Assembly: GCF_964212655.1 (NCBI RefSeq)
Contig: NZ_OZ156465.1
Span: forward strand, 1,612,001 to 1,676,000
Source of the DNA: Candidatus Thiodiazotropha sp. LNASS1
Lineage (GTDB): Bacteria > Pseudomonadota > Gammaproteobacteria > Chromatiales > Chromatiaceae
DNA length: 64,000 bases
Direction of reading: 5' to 3'
Part shown: positions 38,333 through 46,697 of the stretch, in pieces
Position numbering within the stretch: the stretch's first letter is position 1
Layout of the letters: each line of letters begins with the position of its first letter
The notes under the pieces: model-generated
Seen by the model: only the letters and a program-made list of their open reading frames with translations
Told to the model about the DNA's origin: nothing
Databases searched by the model: none
Translations under genes and position numbers: made by a program

Positions 38333-38690
38333 GAAGCTAATATCGAGCATGGATAACATCGTACAACTAAACGGCATAATACCAACAAGTGGGTTGTGTA
38401 AACCAGCCAACATATTCGAGATGCCCGCTATTAACGACCATTAACCAGTCAGCCCCATAGAATACAGGGTTAATAACATCATCTACAATCATATTGCCAA
38501 TCAACCATGCCGTTACTGAGAGCCTGGATCAGCTGAAAAAATAAGTGGATGTCCATACGTATTACTACGACTTAAAATATTTCCCGGCAGTATTTATTAT
38601 TTACGTCAATTGCTAAGCAAGTCGTTTTTAAGACGTACTGTCCTGATTGCCATTCCTTGAATTGCGCTTGTGCAATCAGAGGTTACTATC
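38333..38690. other. Intergenic region marking the left edge of the accessory block
   Basis: About 360 bp, AT-rich, between the divergent modA and MetX-like genes. I see no reading frame, no inverted repeat of the ModE type and no exact sigma-54 site. From here rightwards base composition becomes visibly more AT-rich until about 57.4 kb. Confidence 0.5.
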
Positions 38691-39740
38691 ATGTGTGAGA
38701 ATCCATATTATACCGCAGAACAACATGGTGATTTCGACCTCTTTGAACTGGAAGATTTTGTTCTTGAGCAAGGCGCCACGTTGCGCAATGCAAGCCTGGC
38801 CTACAAGACTTTTGGTCAACTCAATAAAGAAGCTGACAATGCAATCCTATTTCCGGTTATGTTTTCCGGCACCCATGCTGCTATGGCGACATATGTAGGT
38901 AGTGAATTGGCACTCAATCCCGAAAAATATTTTATTATAATACCCAACCAACTAGGAGGCGGCCTATCCACTTCACCGCATAACACACAAGGAGAATACG
39001 GTGGAGCATCCTTCCCAATGTTGAGTATTGGCGATGACGTACGCGCTCAGCACAAATTGCTAAACGAACACTTTGGCATTCGCACTCTGCAACTGGTGAC
39101 TGGTTGGTCAATGGGGGCGCAACAAACCTATGAATGGGCTGTTCGGTACCCGAATATGGTCACACGAGCTCTACCTATTGCTGGAACAGCCAAGACGACT
39201 CCTCACTGCGGCTTATATGTGGATGTTTTCTGTGAAGCGTTGAATTCTGACCCAGCCTGGAAAAATGGTGCTTATAAAAACGCCAATGACGTAAGTGAAG
39301 GTTTATGCCGAATGGCTAGAGTATTCGCCATGATGGGTGCCAGTCATGAGTTGTTTAATGAAAAAAGCTGGTCGAATTTTGGTTTTTCCTCAACAGAAGA
39401 CTTTCTAGCAGGATTTTGGGAGAACTGGTTCTTGCCAATGGACCCCAACAATCTGCTGTGTATGGCAAAAAAATGGCGTAGCGGCGATGTCAGCCAACAT
39501 ACAGGTGGAAATTTGGAATCTGCTTTGCACCGTATCAAGGCAAAAATGCTTGTTGTTGCTTTTAAACAGGACATGTTTATCACTGAAGCTGATTGTCGCC
39601 GTGAGCAGCAAATGATTGCTAATAGTGAATTTGTAAGCATTTCCTCACAATGGGGGCACTTTTCAATGTTAGGTATGTCGCGAGACGACTTCAAAATAAT
39701 CAATTCTTGCCTGGAACGGTTACTGGCCGCTCCGGTTTAG
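38691..39740 (+). CDS. MetX-like alpha/beta-hydrolase
   Basis: 349 residues from ATG 38691 (MCENPYYTAEQHGDFDLFEL), behind AGAGG. The alpha/beta-hydrolase fold of the homoserine O-acetyltransferase family is visible: LAYKTFGQLN, nucleophile elbow VTGWSMGAQQTYEWA (Ser about residue 137), acid in VVAFKQDMFIT and catalytic His in SSQWGHFSMLG. Lacks the extended lid and homoserine-specific sequence context of true MetX, so transferase, hydrolase or dehalogenase-like action on another acyl or thiol substrate is more likely. Next gene is the SBP56/methanethiol oxidase homologue, suggesting a link to sulfur or volatile-compound metabolism. Substrate unknown. Confidence 0.7.
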   Translation: MCENPYYTAEQHGDFDLFELEDFVLEQGATLRNASLAYKTFGQLNKEADNAILFPVMFSGTHAAMATYVGSELALNPEKYFIIIPNQLGGGLSTSPHNTQGEYGGASFPMLSIGDDVRAQHKLLNEHFGIRTLQLVTGWSMGAQQTYEWAVRYPNMVTRALPIAGTAKTTPHCGLYVDVFCEALNSDPAWKNGAYKNANDVSEGLCRMARVFAMMGASHELFNEKSWSNFGFSSTEDFLAGFWENWFLPMDPNNLLCMAKKWRSGDVSQHTGGNLESALHRIKAKMLVVAFKQDMFITEADCRREQQMIANSEFVSISSQWGHFSMLGMSRDDFKIINSCLERLLAAPV

Positions 39741-39906: not shown

Positions 39907-41286
39907 ATGGGTTCTGCAACCTTAATACCGGCCGGCAAGGTCTCTTTGGCGATTTTCCTCGCGACTGCTACCACATTGACTTCACTATTAAGCACAGCCG
40001 TGGCTGACGAAACCTGCCAGTCGCCCTACATGGCTAAGATTGTCGGCCAGGAAGATTTCGTTTATGTCTGGACACTTGGAGTCGAGGGTGTAGGTGATGG
40101 ACAGGATAAACTGGTTACAGTCGATGTCAATCCAAAATCCAACCATTATGGCACAATTGTCAATACGCTTTCTGTTGGCGGCAGGAATGAGGCGCACCAT
40201 TCCGGGTTTACTGACGACCGTCACTACTTGTGGGCTGGTGGCTTGGATACCAATAAGATTTTTATATTCGATGTTTACAGCGACCCAAGGAAACCACGTC
40301 TACACCATATCATCACTGACTTCGTCTCCAAGAGCGGCGGTGTTGTCGGACCTCATACCACTTATGCATTGCCTGGACGAATGATGGTAACCGGGCTTTC
40401 AAACAATAAAGATCACGGTGGCCGTACAGCACTGGTAGAGTACACTAACGACGGCCAATACATTTCGACACACTGGATGCCGACTGATGGAAATCTTCAT
40501 GGCGCAACAAAAAGTGGCAAATATGCTGATGGTTACGGTTATGATATTCGAGCCCTTCCTCGTCGTAATGTGATGGTTTCATCTTCGTTTACCGGCTGGT
40601 CCAATTATATGATGGACTTTGGTAAAATGTTACAGGATAAAGAGGCTATGAAGCGCTTTGGCAACACAGTCGTTGTATGGGATCTGCATACCCGTAAACC
40701 TAAGAAGGTATTGGATGTTCCAGGCGCTCCACTGGAAGTCCGCTGTGCATGGCAACCAAATAACAACTGGTGCCTGACCACGACTGCCCTGACATCGAAG
40801 ATATGGTTGATTTACGAGGATAAAGATGGCGAGTGGCACTCCAAAGCTGTTGCCGATATTGGCGATCCGTCCAAGGTACCCCTCCCGGTGGACATATCGA
40901 TTGCCTCAGATGACTCTGGCTTATGGGTCAATACATTTATGGATGGAAAAACACGCTTCTTCGATCTGAGCGATCCGCACAAACCTAAGCAGGTGTATGA
41001 GAAAGCGATAGCATCACAGGTTAATATGGCATCCTCAAGCTGGGACGGCAAGCGTATCTACTATACCAGTTCCCTATTGGCCAATTGGGATAAGAAAGGC
41101 AATGACGATGAGCAGTACTTCAAGGCCTATCATTGGGATGGAAACAAGCTTACCGAGCAGTTCAAGATAGATTTCTATAAGGAGAAGCTTGGACGTGCCC
41201 ATCAGATGCGTTTCGGTGCATATTCACTTTACGGTATGCAGAGGAACGACATGCTGAAAAGCGTTGACTTGGCGGCTACCAAGTAA
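39907..41286 (+). CDS. Selenium-binding protein 56 family, methanethiol oxidase homologue
   Basis: 459 residues. ATG 39907 follows GGAGG. An N-terminal signal sequence ending AVAD exports it. Family landmarks: VGGRNEAHHSGFTDDRHYLW, VGPHTTYALPGRMMV, GNLHGATKSG...YGYDIRALPRRNVMVSSSF and RAHQMRFGAYSLYG with conserved metal-site histidines. In bacteria (MtoX) this Cu-dependent periplasmic enzyme oxidises methanethiol to formaldehyde, sulfide and peroxide. It lacks the neighbouring SCO1/MauG maturation genes of the classical mto cluster, so methanethiol as substrate is inference. It sits at the left of the monooxygenase block. Confidence 0.85.
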   Translation: MGSATLIPAGKVSLAIFLATATTLTSLLSTAVADETCQSPYMAKIVGQEDFVYVWTLGVEGVGDGQDKLVTVDVNPKSNHYGTIVNTLSVGGRNEAHHSGFTDDRHYLWAGGLDTNKIFIFDVYSDPRKPRLHHIITDFVSKSGGVVGPHTTYALPGRMMVTGLSNNKDHGGRTALVEYTNDGQYISTHWMPTDGNLHGATKSGKYADGYGYDIRALPRRNVMVSSSFTGWSNYMMDFGKMLQDKEAMKRFGNTVVVWDLHTRKPKKVLDVPGAPLEVRCAWQPNNNWCLTTTALTSKIWLIYEDKDGEWHSKAVADIGDPSKVPLPVDISIASDDSGLWVNTFMDGKTRFFDLSDPHKPKQVYEKAIASQVNMASSSWDGKRIYYTSSLLANWDKKGNDDEQYFKAYHWDGNKLTEQFKIDFYKEKLGRAHQMRFGAYSLYGMQRNDMLKSVDLAATK

Positions 41287-41717: not shown

Positions 41718-42119
41718 TCAGACCTCCCGCCATGAGAGTTTCTCTATTCGCAAAAGATCGCATATAAAGGCCAAGCAATCGTTGACTTCAATTTCCTTGC
41801 AAGTATAGATATCGAGAGTGAAAAAATGTCTTTCCCGCCAGGTATAGAAAGAGCATCCTGATTCAGCCCAGGCCTGGTAACCACCTATACCGTGATGCAA
41901 CTTACTGACTGAATCGGGTGAAAAGATCAGAGTATCGGCGATTGGAGTCATGGCAAGGCAATCGCTCAAACCGCTAAGCACTTCACGTACCGTCTCTTCA
42001 GAAACAGCCGGAAGACTGTAGATACCTTCGATGATAATGCGCTGTCGTCGAATATCAGGACAAATAGCCAATGTGTCACCATGCGAACGAACTTGCGGTT
42101 GAAAATTCTGATTTGGCAT
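41718..42119 (-). CDS. S-adenosylmethionine decarboxylase-like protein
   Basis: 133 residues from ATG 42119; a GTG at 42134 is also possible and neither has a clear ribosome site. The central part resembles SpeD: DTLIFSPDSVSKLHHGIGG, then ESGCSFYTWRERHFFTLDIY, TCKEI. In SpeD the equivalent ESHxSxHTWPE holds the Ser that becomes the pyruvoyl group, and YTC the proton donor. Here Ser and Cys are retained but the two His of the ESHxSxH segment are Gly and Tyr. Processing and decarboxylase activity are thus uncertain; it could have a new substrate. Lies next to the sigma-54 activator and SBP56 genes, with a repeat element in front. Confidence 0.55.
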   Translation of the reverse strand: MPNQNFQPQVRSHGDTLAICPDIRRQRIIIEGIYSLPAVSEETVREVLSGLSDCLAMTPIADTLIFSPDSVSKLHHGIGGYQAWAESGCSFYTWRERHFFTLDIYTCKEIEVNDCLAFICDLLRIEKLSWREV

Positions 42120-42162
42120 TGAAATTGTAAACACGGGCGTTATTCTTAATCACTGTTCATGC

Positions 42163-42295
42163 TAGGGCCTGTCAACACTAATCCTGTCGGCCCTGTTACC
42201 CCTGAAAAAACGCCAATCAATACACACCCCAAGGGCACTTCCTTCGGGGCGCACCCCAAGGGCTGGTGCTATTGGATCAGTGTTATCAGGCCCTA
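42163..42295. repeat. Short repeat element with terminal inverted repeats
   Basis: Left end TAGGGCCTGTCAACACTAAT (42163-42182) and right end, inverted, TAGGGCCTGATAACACTGAT (from 42295 leftwards) match the ends of the 52338-52606 element. The 133-bp interior has ACCCCAAGGGC and CGGGGCGCACCCCAAGGGC stem parts instead of the longer interior of the full copy, so it is a short or rearranged version. It lies upstream of both the SpeD-like gene and the end of the sigma-54 activator gene. Flanking TA on both sides fits a TA target duplication. Confidence 0.75.
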
Positions 42296-42413
42296 GGACT
42301 ACTCATGATTGTTTGGCGTAACAAATATACACGCTTCCTTCCCTGATCGACAATAATTCAGTCACAGTAGTCGCAAGTATATACATGTTTACATACCCTT
42401 GTAATGCGCTGTA

Positions 42414-44354
42414 TCAGCGTGGTGGACGGATATCAAAACGTTTCATTTTTCGGTAGACGGTGTTGCGGCTGATATGCAGTTTAGAGGCAACCCGGGTGAT
42501 GTTCCAATGAGCAGCCTCCAACTCCCGCAATATTGCATCACGCTCAGCGATATCCAATGAATTGGTTGGGCGGAATCGTTGCGTGGGCTCACCGCTGTAC
42601 GAGACATTGACGATCTCATCCGGCAGGTCTTCCACTCGAATGCTTGTGTTGTCGCATAGACCAATCAGGATACGAAGAATATTGCGCAACTGACGGATAT
42701 TGCCCGGCCAATAATAATCGTGAAGTGCTTGCAGCGCTTTATCCTCTATTATGATCCGCTCTCGATCGCCTATCTCCTGTTCTAAAAGATGTTTAATCAG
42801 GGCATCTCGGTCTTCGCGATCTCGCAACGGGGGCATCTTCAGGCTAATACCGTTGAGTCGATAATAGAGGTCTAACCGGAAACGGCCCTCGTCAACAAGC
42901 AACTGGAGATCCTTATGGGTCGCGCTGACCAGGCGAATGTCAACCTTTATCGGGACCTCGCCACCAAGTGGAATAACCTCTCTCTCCTCCAGAACTCTCA
43001 AAAGACGTGCCTGTAGGTGGAGAGGCATATCACCGATTTCATCAAGAAACAGCGTACCACCGTTTGCCTGCACAATCTTGCCTCGATACCCCTCTTTGTT
43101 TGCTCCTGTGAATGCGCCAGAGCGGTATCCGAAGAGTTCACTCTCAATCAGTGTTTCTGGCAATGAGGCGCAATTGACTGCAATCAGTGGCTTATCCGCC
43201 CGGCGGCTGGATTTATGTACAGCCTTGACAAATACATCCTTTCCGGTCCCCGTCTCTCCAAGTATGATAAAAGGGATATTCCGCTCAAGTAGTTTCTTGG
43301 CGCGTTCAATATTGCGACACATGCGAGTGTCACCGAACTCCAGGTCATCCAGTACCGGTTTCACCTCGTTACCTGAGGTTGACGTGGTAAATCTTTTACT
43401 TCGGCCATTCGGCCGGCGTTTGTCGGAACTGGGGGGTTGGAAACCGGCATAGAATCGGCGACCATGTATTATATCCTGCAGTGCAGTAGGGACTGTCGCC
43501 AAATCATGGGCATTGCTCAGAGCATTACTGATGTGGATGTCAAACAGCGCTTCAATCCGCTGACCAAGCAAACCCTTTATGTTGGCCATATCAAGTTGAA
43601 ACAAAGCGCTACGGTTTGCAGCTTTTATACACCCGTCACCATCGAATGCCAGTACCCCCTCACCTAGGGTGGTGATGAACTCGGGACGGCTATGGAAGCG
43701 GAGGATATAGTTATCGCGCATGCAACAAAACAAGAGGCGGTTTTCGATCAGCTGGGCCGACATATTGACCAGCACCATGGTATGTTGCTGAGCCTGGTGT
43801 GAATGACTGGAAGCGTCCAGCACCGCGATCAGTTCACCTGTTGGATCCAGTATGGGCGCTGCAGAGCAGCTCAGATGGGTATTTTGCGAAAAGAAGTGCT
43901 CATTCTTGTGGATAATCAGTGGTCGCTTTTCAATCAGGCACGTGCCCATGCCATTTGTTCCTTGTGTCTGCTCGGCCCAAACGGCACCCAATTGTAACCC
44001 TGTTTTGCCAGCGATGTTTGTAAACATCGGATCGCTCACATAGTTGACAACCACCCCTTCGCTGTCCGTCAGTAGGATTGAGTGGCCTGAACCGGCAACC
44101 TGCTGATACAGGTTGGTCATTTCTGAAAACGCAATCGCTGAAAGGTGACTGTATCTTTCCTGCCTCTGCTTCAAGTCTTTATGGTCGACAACAACTGTTT
44201 CCGGTCGATACTCAGGATCCAGAATGTGGTCATTGATACAGCGTTCCCAGGAGCGGATGATCTGTTCATTGACCACATTCTCGACGGTTCTGCGATCGCG
44301 AACGGCGGCTTTCACAAATCCATAATGCGGCAAATTGGCGTTGTCACTATTCAT
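42414..44354 (-). CDS. Sigma-54-dependent activator, AcoR/DhaR type (second copy)
   Basis: 646 residues. GAF-like sensor (about residues 60-210 with TQGTNGMGTCLIEKRP), PAS-like linker (about 225-320), AAA+ domain with Walker A GETGTGKD (about 366), GAFTGA loop (about 411), GGTLFLDEIGDMP and R-finger region, and a C-terminal Fis-type HTH (VASKLHISRNTVYRKMKR). Same architecture as the regulator at 8789, with moderate identity, so the two are paralogues. No receiver, hence ligand sensing. The sigma-54 promoter at 46698 in front of the acyl-CoA-dehydrogenase-like gene is a plausible target, as are FadL and neighbours. Confidence 0.88.
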   Translation of the reverse strand: MNSDNANLPHYGFVKAAVRDRRTVENVVNEQIIRSWERCINDHILDPEYRPETVVVDHKDLKQRQERYSHLSAIAFSEMTNLYQQVAGSGHSILLTDSEGVVVNYVSDPMFTNIAGKTGLQLGAVWAEQTQGTNGMGTCLIEKRPLIIHKNEHFFSQNTHLSCSAAPILDPTGELIAVLDASSHSHQAQQHTMVLVNMSAQLIENRLLFCCMRDNYILRFHSRPEFITTLGEGVLAFDGDGCIKAANRSALFQLDMANIKGLLGQRIEALFDIHISNALSNAHDLATVPTALQDIIHGRRFYAGFQPPSSDKRRPNGRSKRFTTSTSGNEVKPVLDDLEFGDTRMCRNIERAKKLLERNIPFIILGETGTGKDVFVKAVHKSSRRADKPLIAVNCASLPETLIESELFGYRSGAFTGANKEGYRGKIVQANGGTLFLDEIGDMPLHLQARLLRVLEEREVIPLGGEVPIKVDIRLVSATHKDLQLLVDEGRFRLDLYYRLNGISLKMPPLRDREDRDALIKHLLEQEIGDRERIIIEDKALQALHDYYWPGNIRQLRNILRILIGLCDNTSIRVEDLPDEIVNVSYSGEPTQRFRPTNSLDIAERDAILRELEAAHWNITRVASKLHISRNTVYRKMKRFDIRPPR

Positions 44355-44448: not shown

Positions 44449-45705
44449 TTAGAAATTCCAGGTCAATGCAACCCCGGTGTGCCACGAATAGGTTTCAGCA
44501 TTGGTGTGACCACCGCCAGGGAGACTGCCCGTACCGTAATCACGATCCTCTTTGAACTGCCACCCGACATGCGCGTCCAGATCGATAGGAGGCGCTAAAA
44601 AACCCTTATAGCCGAATCCCAAGGTGAGTCTATGCTTATAGATCACTTCCGCCTGTGTGGCCTGGATATACTGGGTTACCTGTTGATTTAGAGGAATTGG
44701 GCCGACATTGCTAAAAACTTGTGAAATTCCCCCTATAGGTCCGGTCGTACCGGTATCAGTGGGATCGTCACCATAACCGTAACCGATTCGATATTTCCAG
44801 CTACCTCGAGTTAATTGGGCGCCCAGGGAGACGACTGTTTGATCATCGTAAACATCCTGCCAGAATTTTGCGTCATCCCAGAATTTGTGGATGACATCAA
44901 ATGCCAGCAAAAGATTTCCATGCATGAGACTGTTGTTCGCGATACCGAATCCTATATTAGAGGGTTGCTCAATATCCGGGCTTGCATAACTGTTGGCGCT
45001 GGTTTGTACCTGGTTGTCGAAGGTATGTTTGAGCTCTGTCTGATAGTAGGCTCCATACATCGTCGTGCCGGTATCGTATGTGGCTCCAAACGTACCTCTC
45101 AATCCAATATCATGAGTGGCAGCGGAGGTTGATGAAAGCCCAAGATCCAGTTCAGCGAAACTGATTGTTGCAGCGAACCCGAGTGAAATGCGATCAGTGA
45201 CCTCGTAGCCAAGGCCGGCATTTACACCAAGAATGATAAATTCCGCTCCTGCACCCAGGCTCCCCGGATTGCCCCTGAATTCTGCGCCGATTCCGGACAC
45301 TGCAGTCAAACCCAAACCCAGCGTTGCGGGAAAACCCAATCCTCGAAGGTCCTGGGTGATTGCCGTATTGGGTACGGCAAACACATCTGTACCTGAATTT
45401 TCGCTGAATGCAGTACCGGTAACACTGCCGTCATGGGTCAGATCAACTTCTGGCATGTAGAAAGTTGCACCGAAACTGAATTTTGTGCCTTTGAATTGTG
45501 TGAGTGTTGCGGGGTTGCCAAACACCGTTGAGCTTATATCCTGAGGGCGCGCCAGACTTGTGCCTGCCATACCTCCTGAAGCGGGAGACAAGGTATTGTG
45601 CAGATCGTATCCATGGGGTCCGGCAAAACAGTTTGCCGTGGAAATACAACCAATAGCCATTGTCAATACCGATATACCACGAGTCATGTGAATCACTTTA
45701 TACAT
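44449..45705 (-). CDS. FadL/TodX-family outer-membrane hydrophobic-compound channel
   Basis: 418 residues: signal peptide (to about NCFAGP), then the conserved N-terminal hatch region GYDLHNTLSPASGGMAGTSL with the family's NPA motif (VFGNPATLTQF). The rest is beta-barrel with a terminal aromatic (ALTWNF). Members such as FadL, TodX and XylN import fatty acids, alkanes and monoaromatics across the outer membrane. Its presence beside an XylM/AlkB-like oxygenase suggests a hydrocarbon-type substrate. The unknown gene at 45773 probably leads this transcription unit. Confidence 0.87.
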   Translation of the reverse strand: MYKVIHMTRGISVLTMAIGCISTANCFAGPHGYDLHNTLSPASGGMAGTSLARPQDISSTVFGNPATLTQFKGTKFSFGATFYMPEVDLTHDGSVTGTAFSENSGTDVFAVPNTAITQDLRGLGFPATLGLGLTAVSGIGAEFRGNPGSLGAGAEFIILGVNAGLGYEVTDRISLGFAATISFAELDLGLSSTSAATHDIGLRGTFGATYDTGTTMYGAYYQTELKHTFDNQVQTSANSYASPDIEQPSNIGFGIANNSLMHGNLLLAFDVIHKFWDDAKFWQDVYDDQTVVSLGAQLTRGSWKYRIGYGYGDDPTDTGTTGPIGGISQVFSNVGPIPLNQQVTQYIQATQAEVIYKHRLTLGFGYKGFLAPPIDLDAHVGWQFKEDRDYGTGSLPGGGHTNAETYSWHTGVALTWNF

Positions 45706-45772: not shown

Positions 45773-46264
45773 CTAACCATTGATCCCCGCAAAGCCATTA
45801 GCTTGTAGAACATGTGTTAATAGCTTTAATAAAGGACAACGAGATTGCTCAGAATCGATCAGCTTCCACAACCTGTCTCGATCAGCAGAACGGTTGGCGT
45901 CTGTTTCAATGATGATTTGATTTGAACGCATGGGCCCCGACTCGACAAGACTGAATAAATTGTTTACATCCAGATGCCTACGAGCAAAGAAATCATCCGG
46001 ACAAATACCCATTTTCAATTTATCGGTTGAGTTATCCAATTGCTGATAGACTGTAAACATTGATAATGGCAATCCCATTGGGGCAGTAGACTTCTGCCAC
46101 TCATGAATGGTTTGTTCGTAGCGTTCGGCGTTGTGAACATCTGTAGTCTGTGTATCGATAAGCCATTCTTCCCATAACGCCGCATTCATGCTGAATTCAA
46201 TATTGGGCATGGACATGCTGTTTCGAGCTGCTTTTATTGCACCACCACACGTCGTTCGGGACAT
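45773..46264 (-). CDS. Protein of unknown function upstream of the FadL-like gene
   Basis: 163 residues from ATG 46264, behind GGAGG at proper spacing. No signal peptide or membrane segment. Trp-containing helix WEEWLIDTQTTDVHNAERYE, then ICPDDFFARRHLDVNNLFSL and SGPMRSNQIIIETDANRSAD. Two cysteine-containing regions (CGG, RCPLLK). I recognise no domain. Its own ribosome site and the 67-bp distance to the FadL gene suggest an operon, so it may be a soluble partner of uptake or catabolism. Unique composition makes it a useful marker for finding similar clusters. Confidence 0.65.
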   Translation of the reverse strand: MSRTTCGGAIKAARNSMSMPNIEFSMNAALWEEWLIDTQTTDVHNAERYEQTIHEWQKSTAPMGLPLSMFTVYQQLDNSTDKLKMGICPDDFFARRHLDVNNLFSLVESGPMRSNQIIIETDANRSADRDRLWKLIDSEQSRCPLLKLLTHVLQANGFAGING

Positions 46265-46697
46265 TGTTCTTACCTCCAGCAATAAATGTACTAATGCGTA
46301 ATAGGTGTCATCCCTGAAACACTAGAGATGGCTTTTATATGCCACTCATTGGACAGCTACTCTAGTATTTCAAACAGCTTGGTGGTATACGCAGAACTAC
46401 GTGTGTCAAATTGCAGAGAGGCTATTATGATATGGTGAGGATAGTATCGAATTACCGGCACACGGGTATGACATGCAAAGTAAAACGGTCATTCTTTCGT
46501 TACGATCGAGGCTAAAATAATATTACTTATTGATTAACTGGTTAATATCCAGAAAACACTAGGATTAGACGGGGGTTGTGAAATGACACACTATTTCATC
46601 GATATACACTTCACTAGATACCAAGTTGGTTTTTGGGGTGCGCATGGCTTTAAATGTATACACTACCCTACAGTAACTAATTATTCAGGTTGACAGG
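46265..46697. other. Divergent control region upstream of the acyl-CoA-dehydrogenase-like gene
   Basis: AT-rich region without genes between the divergent 46264 and 46793 genes. It contains the ATTAAC-TG-GTTAAT palindrome (46533-46546). No exact sigma-54 site was found for the leftward unit; a TGGCATA...AGCC near 46340 has nine instead of ten bases between GG and GC. Confidence 0.5.
46533..46546. promoter_or_regulatory. Palindromic candidate operator
   Basis: ATTAAC-TG-GTTAAT, a perfect 6+6 inverted repeat with a 2-bp centre, about 150 bp upstream of the sigma-54 promoter. Its layout recalls the ATAAACCATGGTTTAT box bound by StyR/TodT-type response regulators, and a regulator of that type is encoded at 50012. 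It may instead be the activator site of the sigma-54 regulator. Confidence 0.4.

Follow-up and report, generated by a model that had tools for sequence, protein, structure and literature searches.

The closest described relatives of the protein reported here are the S-adenosylmethionine decarboxylases (AdoMetDC, SpeD) of class 1b, with structures from T. maritima (TM0655; 1tlu and 1vr7) and A. aeolicus (2iii). In the T. maritima enzyme S63 is the precursor of the pyruvoyl group and H68 is called essential for processing, and S63, H68 and C83 are reasoned to be conserved in SpeD as well as in SpeDA and SpeDC, the arginine and ornithine decarboxylases that are found in polyamine clusters and provide a precedent for a SpeD fold with a changed amino-acid substrate (PMC10407285). 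For SpeDA and SpeDC, kcat/Km values of 100-1000 per M per s are reported, and SpeDC is further marked by four diagnostic residues, Gln, Thr, Phe and Tyr (PMC10407285). According to a 2025 survey, the known pyruvoyl-dependent amino-acid decarboxylases act on histidine, on aspartate and, in some cases, on arginine (PMC12484125), to which Li 2023 added ornithine.

Biosynthesis of methylofuran (MYFR) is the second system that bears on this locus. The cofactor is described in a tyrosine form and a tyramine form, with the conversion of tyrosine to tyramine as the amino-acid decarboxylation of the proposed pathway and with MfnA, a PLP enzyme of PF00282, as the enzyme that makes tyramine (PMC8141765). 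An MfnA homologue was absent from three of six strains with tyramine-containing MYFR, and the authors suggested either that other tyrosine decarboxylases exist or that another precursor is used (Hemmann et al. 2021, PMC8141765). Methylorubrum extorquens AM1, by contrast, produces MYFR-tyrosine, although it can accept tyramine (PMC8141765). Here we analyse a SpeD-like gene in a 64,000-nucleotide stretch of the genome of Candidatus Thiodiazotropha sp. LNASS1 (the window), and we lean towards its product as a candidate L-tyrosine decarboxylase of MYFR biosynthesis, neofunctionalised from SpeD and probably reliant on a pyruvoyl group.

Family membership and active-site residues

The gene and the positions that matter for its putative active site are, in window coordinates:

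41718..42134, minus strand: SpeD-like protein, predicted AdoMet_dc fold, 138 aa from GTG 42134
41859..41864, minus strand: Glu91-Ser92, predicted self-cleavage bond, Ser92 corresponding in alignments to the pyruvoyl precursor S63 of T. maritima
41844..41846, minus strand: Tyr97, which occupies the processing/catalytic position H68 of SpeD and does not vary among the family members compared
41799..41801, minus strand: Cys112, corresponding to C83 of T. maritima and likewise unvaried among the family members compared

An internal ATG at 42119, the end given in the first-pass annotation of this DNA, yields a protein of 133 aa. To judge from the homologues, which begin just upstream of the CPE/ICPE stretch, translation may naturally start at TTG 42071, for 117 aa. 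The sole Pfam match up to E 1 was AdoMet_dc (PF02675), above its gathering cut-off (E 2.7e-10, 41 bits against 25), with homologues at two other loci (L030 and L012) scoring 40.0 and 35.1 bits. The window protein fell below the cut-off of the NCBIfam AdoMetDC equivalog TIGR03330 (32.7 bits against 75.65) and did not match the profiles of MfnA-type PLP decarboxylases (PF00282 and TIGR03812). HMMER aligned the solved AdoMetDCs 2iii and 1tlu with it across both motifs (for 2iii, 1.2e-3 when the window protein alone was the query and 1.8e-5 when a family profile was), which bears out the earlier proposal that ESGCSFYTWRE and IYTCKE are the counterparts of the SpeD motifs. The SpeD-like proteins formed a single clade (support 97/92) in a tree whose deeper order is not supported and in which a number of the sequences beyond the family sit on very long branches. 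The window gene is thus a true AdoMetDC/SpeD homologue of a new subfamily. Values of dN/dS between 0.07 and 0.19 in six of nine pairs (dS above 2 in two of the six; the other three pairs saturated) point to purifying selection acting on this subfamily.

Structure prediction agreed with this placement. An AF2 model built from nine family members reached moderate confidence (pLDDT 68.9, pTM 0.64, with residues 1-25, 71-77 and 83-89 under 50), its first five Foldseek matches were all AdoMetDC, and the structural comparison (VIA) with T. maritima AdoMetDC 1tlu_A gave Z 13.5 and rmsd 2.2 over 106 residues. The likeness to SpeD that had been suggested from motifs therefore extends to the predicted model, in which the protein adopts the AdoMetDC fold.

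The residues themselves were compared in an alignment of 11 family members that included the window sequence, with numbers as in T. maritima. E62, S63 and C83 were kept in every member, H64 was replaced by Gly and H68 by Tyr in every member, and the S55 position held Gly in eight and Ala in three. The replacement of both motif histidines, already remarked in the first-pass annotation for the single sequence, is therefore a family trait and is accompanied by a change at S55. The equivalents of S55 and H68 have roles in human AdoMetDC. Compared with class 1b SpeD, the family shares the fold, the Glu-Ser bond, Cys83 and the TW motif, but differs at S55, H64 and H68, in a His-His-Gly ahead of the motif, in its methylofuran operon and in missing the TIGR03330 cut-off. 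SpeDA and SpeDC differ from it in turn, as there H68 is treated as conserved and the clusters are those of polyamine genes (PMC10407285), whereas the SpeD-like proteins have Tyr at this position and a cofactor-biosynthesis context. With H68 replaced in 11 of 11 members, the residue set S63, H68 and C83 is incomplete, and the family is therefore no ordinary member of SpeD, SpeDA or SpeDC. Invariant in the nine-member alignment were His80 and His81 (window numbering, just ahead of the motif), Cys94, Ser95, Tyr97 and Lys113, and from sequence conservation these are candidates for the roles lost with S55 and H68.

The loss of these processing residues is a real point against a working pyruvoyl enzyme, and it raises the question of a non-processing pseudoenzyme with a structural or regulatory role. 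Trypanosome prozyme, an inactive AdoMetDC homologue, offers a comparison. Both S55 and H68 are replaced throughout the family, and a SpeDC domain that has lost critical residues and cannot self-cleave is on record (PMC10407285). We nevertheless hold a pseudoenzyme to be improbable, given that E62, S63, C83 and the further invariant residues are kept, that dN/dS is low wherever it is measurable, and that neither G000 nor G023 has another PF02675 protein as a possible active partner.

A sister clade of plasmid-borne relatives with an ESG/DSG...Y motif shares the replacement of H64 by Gly and of H68 by Tyr and keeps the Ser and the Cys:

L014:5992-6348: Halioglobus
L015:5992-6348: Acaryochloris
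L016:5992-6354: Nostoc

The methylofuran query genes were absent near the Halioglobus copy, and no such annotation was present near the Acaryochloris and Nostoc copies. Since this clade has the ESG...Y changes and the Halioglobus copy has none of the methylofuran query genes nearby, the changes are not tied to tyrosine as a substrate.

Place in methylofuran and H4MPT gene clusters

Homologues with these motifs, on whose existence the first-pass reading depended, were found at ten distinct loci outside the window species by whole-genome searches and one motif scan of named species genomes. The loci belong to genomes G023, G188 (same contig as L036) and G303, to Sedimenticola selenatireducens DSM 17993, an S. 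thiotaurini MAG and two other Sedimenticola MAGs, and to a Chromatiales, a gammaproteobacterial and a Thiotrichales MAG. At all ten, the SpeD-like gene lies directly 3' of DUF447-MfnB, with an overlap of 1 or 4 bp between its start and the mfnB stop. On stretches long enough to show it, the genes run sigma-54 regulator, PTPS-like, flavoprotein, DUF6513 DHPS-like, FhcB, FhcA, DUF447, MfnB and SpeD-like, and alongside these clusters are MfnE, PabB, MfnF, MyfA/MfnD-like, Orf17 and Fae, where we take Pfam AA_kinase to correspond to MfnE and Hydantoinase_A to MfnF. The whole gene set is present at L030, L031, L033 and L035, and likewise at L011, where the stretch reaches no further than the regulator's edge; the remaining loci are shorter stretches or hold part of the set. 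This content matches the archaeal-like H4MPT/MYFR cluster described for methylotrophs (PMC8141765), and membership of the SpeD-like gene in a MYFR biosynthesis operon is well supported. Among the papers listed in our search of open-licence PMC literature, mostly at title and abstract level, we found no link of SpeD to methylofuran/H4MPT clusters; AdoMetDC and methanofuran do appear together in PMC10560149, as separate methanogen transcripts.

This context bears directly on whether the protein could be a polyamine enzyme that decarboxylates AdoMet, ornithine or arginine in the manner of SpeD, SpeDC or SpeDA. Its Pfam family would suit such a role and neofunctionalisation of SpeD of this kind is documented, but the processing residue H68, treated as conserved in those enzymes (PMC10407285), is Tyr here. 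The genes identified at the ten loci are those of H4MPT and methylofuran (polyamine genes having been searched for at part of the loci), a long SpeD of the E. coli type is encoded separately in G188 and G303, together with SpeE, and in G000 and G023 no SpeE exceeded the cut-off, the weak matches being of 31 and 40 bits. A polyamine role thus seems to us very improbable. The long SpeD is presumably the form labelled class 1a.

At the window locus the surroundings of the gene are different:

38670..39740, plus strand: MetX-like alpha/beta hydrolase (NCBIfam PRK07581 subfamily)
39907..41286, plus strand: methanethiol oxidase MtoX (SBP56 family), NF052453 at 781.6 bits against a cut-off of 650
42162..42296, strand not applicable: MITE-like repeat bounded by terminal inverted repeats of 23 nt, lying between the regulator and the SpeD-like gene
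42414..44354, minus strand: sigma-54-dependent regulator (GAF, AAA+, Fis HTH), from Pfam and comparison with the cluster regulators
44449..45705, minus strand: FadL/TodX-type outer-membrane protein, adjoining the regulator, also in two congeners

The window regulator is 65-70% identical to the regulators of the SpeD-like clusters (partial sequences, six of the ten loci) and 56% identical to a paralogue near the window genome's own MYFR cluster. That cluster, with the MYFR/H4MPT genes at about C1:773,000-795,000 (L027, L147), contains no SpeD-like gene. We infer that the window locus is left over from a second cluster of Sedimenticola type, of which the window species has kept the SpeD-like gene, and the detached gene would still serve the MYFR cluster elsewhere in the genome. 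A further locus, L029, is of the window's own kind, being from a MAG of a Ctena orbiculata clam symbiont with six neighbouring proteins 100% identical, and it probably belongs to the genus Ca. Thiodiazotropha. The regulator-FadL pair occurs without the SpeD-like gene in congeners G015 and G003, and the MITE-like repeat is matched by 77 segments of the window genome (40 of 129 candidates scored). Between FadL and an acyl-CoA dehydrogenase lies a 169-aa ORF (window 45773-46282) for which neither Pfam nor NCBIfam gave a match up to E 1.

From the neighbouring mtoX and MetX-like genes, the first-pass annotation had taken the setting to be catabolic and sulfur-related. This proved misleading, as those neighbours accompany the gene in the window species only, the mtoX neighbourhood not being found at the other loci, while all ten loci elsewhere are in H4MPT/methylofuran genes. 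Of the neofunctionalised decarboxylase proposed there, the decarboxylase stands as the best reading of a SpeD-fold protein and the hint of a sulfur substrate falls; a sulfur-compound decarboxylase was rejected on the MYFR context of the ten loci, and tyrosine is therefore the likelier substrate. MtoX yields formaldehyde (PMC6548844), and since the H4MPT pathway that requires methylofuran takes formaldehyde as its substrate and oxidises it, the window neighbourhood is nonetheless coherent.

Unrelated decarboxylases and the tyramine step

The tyrosine decarboxylase reading was put to a displacement test. MfnB was found in 49 of the 369 genomes of a class sample, and with the weak G129 dropped and G023 added, 49 genomes were scanned for PF02675 and PF00282. 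The SpeD-like gene was present in four of them (G000, G023, G188 and G303). In G059, G216 and G419, all of one family, a PF00282 decarboxylase follows PabB-MfnE with a 4-bp overlap with MfnE, on a different contig from mfnB. The best NCBIfam model for two of these three is MfnA, below its cut-off, and the PLP enzymes that adjoin methylofuran genes score under the MfnA cut-off. In the cluster of G297 the regulator is a related one (54%) and gene order is shared except at FhcA/FhcB, but MfnB is not followed by a SpeD-like gene; a PF00282 decarboxylase (L146:16099-17682) lies divergent from the cluster regulator, and an ordinary long SpeD is encoded on another contig. Dihydropteroate synthase (DHPS) and FolE2 accompany this decarboxylase beside the methylofuran cluster, and G112 (L141) has a decarboxylase 47.5% identical to it that also adjoins a DHPS.

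Within the window's genus, an NspC-like PLP decarboxylase directly follows mfnB in G015, G010 and G020, three of the nine congener MfnB loci surveyed (nine of the genus's 11 MfnB genomes, G005 and G019 being left out), and its first in-frame start codon, the putative start, lies within the end of mfnB:

L028:9186-10427, also in L022 and L023: NspC-like PLP decarboxylase, in the slot held by the SpeD-like gene in Sedimenticola

At all nine of these congener loci, a 323-aa protein with no Pfam match (L027:8956-9927) follows mfnB or the NspC-like gene.

All seven genomes with such decarboxylases (G059, G216, G419, G297, G010, G015 and G020) were without the SpeD-like gene. Conversely, PF00282 above cut-off was missing from three of the four SpeD-like genomes, and G023 has two such proteins, one of them PanP, as well as a genuine NspC outside the methylofuran cluster. 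We looked for methylofuran query genes around 30 PF00282 loci, which came from 23 genomes, in flanking sequence of at most 1.5 kb: PabB-MfnE stood beside three, the regulator with DHPS beside one (G297) and DHPS alone beside one, and the cluster query genes were absent from the flanks of the other 25. This displacement by other decarboxylases supports the tyrosine decarboxylase reading, and because the numbers are small and phylogenetically clumped we treat it as a pattern and not as a statistic; the 25 loci, the NspC of G023 and the scores below the MfnA cut-off weigh against it. A clean mirror between PF00282 absence and the SpeD-like gene was considered and set aside, there being too few cases, two PF00282 proteins in G023 and a number of MfnB genomes that carry neither gene.

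The operon also admits a different assignment, in which the protein acts in MYFR/H4MPT synthesis at another step or on another substrate, such as an intermediate that contains tyrosine, or the unassigned step that forms the amine of the furan moiety. It is linked most closely to MfnB, which synthesises the furan ring, rather than to a known tyramine step, and for bacteria both the transaminase MfnC and what Orf17 does are described as still open (PMC8141765). We think this assignment unlikely, however, given that those SpeD-family enzymes whose activity is known use free alpha-amino acids or AdoMet as the compound to be decarboxylated (PMC10407285) and that decarboxylases of other folds adjoin the methylofuran genes in some genomes without the SpeD-like gene.

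The L-tyrosine decarboxylase reading can be put as a sequence of steps. The SpeD-like proenzyme would cleave itself at Glu91-Ser92 to form the pyruvoyl group, with Tyr97 and the invariant His80/His81, Cys94 and Lys113 presumably taking over from H68 and S55. The processed protein would then convert L-tyrosine to tyramine, the building block of MYFR-tyramine, a substrate suggested by the pathway and the displacement, and in doing so would perform the step otherwise carried out by MfnA, with which it would share reaction and pathway step but neither family nor cofactor. An mfnB-coupled amino-acid decarboxylase of SpeD type fits the gap left where MfnA is lacking. In its carrier organisms the protein is a concrete candidate, of unexpected fold, for the missing tyrosine decarboxylase. 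We give even chances to the wider proposition that this is the first pyruvoyl-dependent L-tyrosine decarboxylase, processed without S55 and H68, filling a missing tyramine step that two unrelated PLP folds, group II and NspC-like, fill in relatives; no pyruvoyl tyrosine decarboxylase was found among the papers listed from open-licence PMC literature, searched mostly at title and abstract level. If true, an aromatic amino acid would join the substrates of the SpeD family, and pyruvoyl formation would be shown to proceed with the canonical histidine replaced.

Distribution and look-alikes

The SpeD-like family is narrow in its occurrence, which weighs against the tyrosine decarboxylase reading, as does the detached position of the gene in the window species. 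It was present in two of the 22 genomes of the window's genus, MfnB occurred without it in ten of 20 congeners, and in the class sample it was carried by three and missing from 45 of 48 MfnB genomes (G129 left out). Genomes with MfnB but not this gene may produce MYFR-tyrosine or rely on a different enzyme. The motif scan, which required exact motif matches, returned nine loci, and the genera of Methylophilus methylotrophus, Hyphomicrobium zavarzinii and Burkholderia sp. Leaf177, the three strains that lack MfnA, were not among them; the SpeD-like protein as the solution for these strains is thus unsupported.

The class sample of 369 genomes gave the members G000, G188 and G303 plus five weak matches with ordinary ESH motifs, and the relatives sample of 93 genomes gave G000 and G023 plus one SpeD-type protein (G033). 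In the phylum sample of 398 genomes, the family profile matched the window genome and 21 others, and all 21 have His at H64 and, apart from one with Asn, at H68; these matches are therefore SpeD-type and outside the family, and a wide distribution was rejected. The small SpeD-like proteins of MfnB genomes G198, G311 and G406 likewise keep both histidines and are not members. One further look-alike, a 211-aa frame in G465 (L176:1123-1755), is AdoMetDC-like and has extra sequence ahead of its ESH motif.
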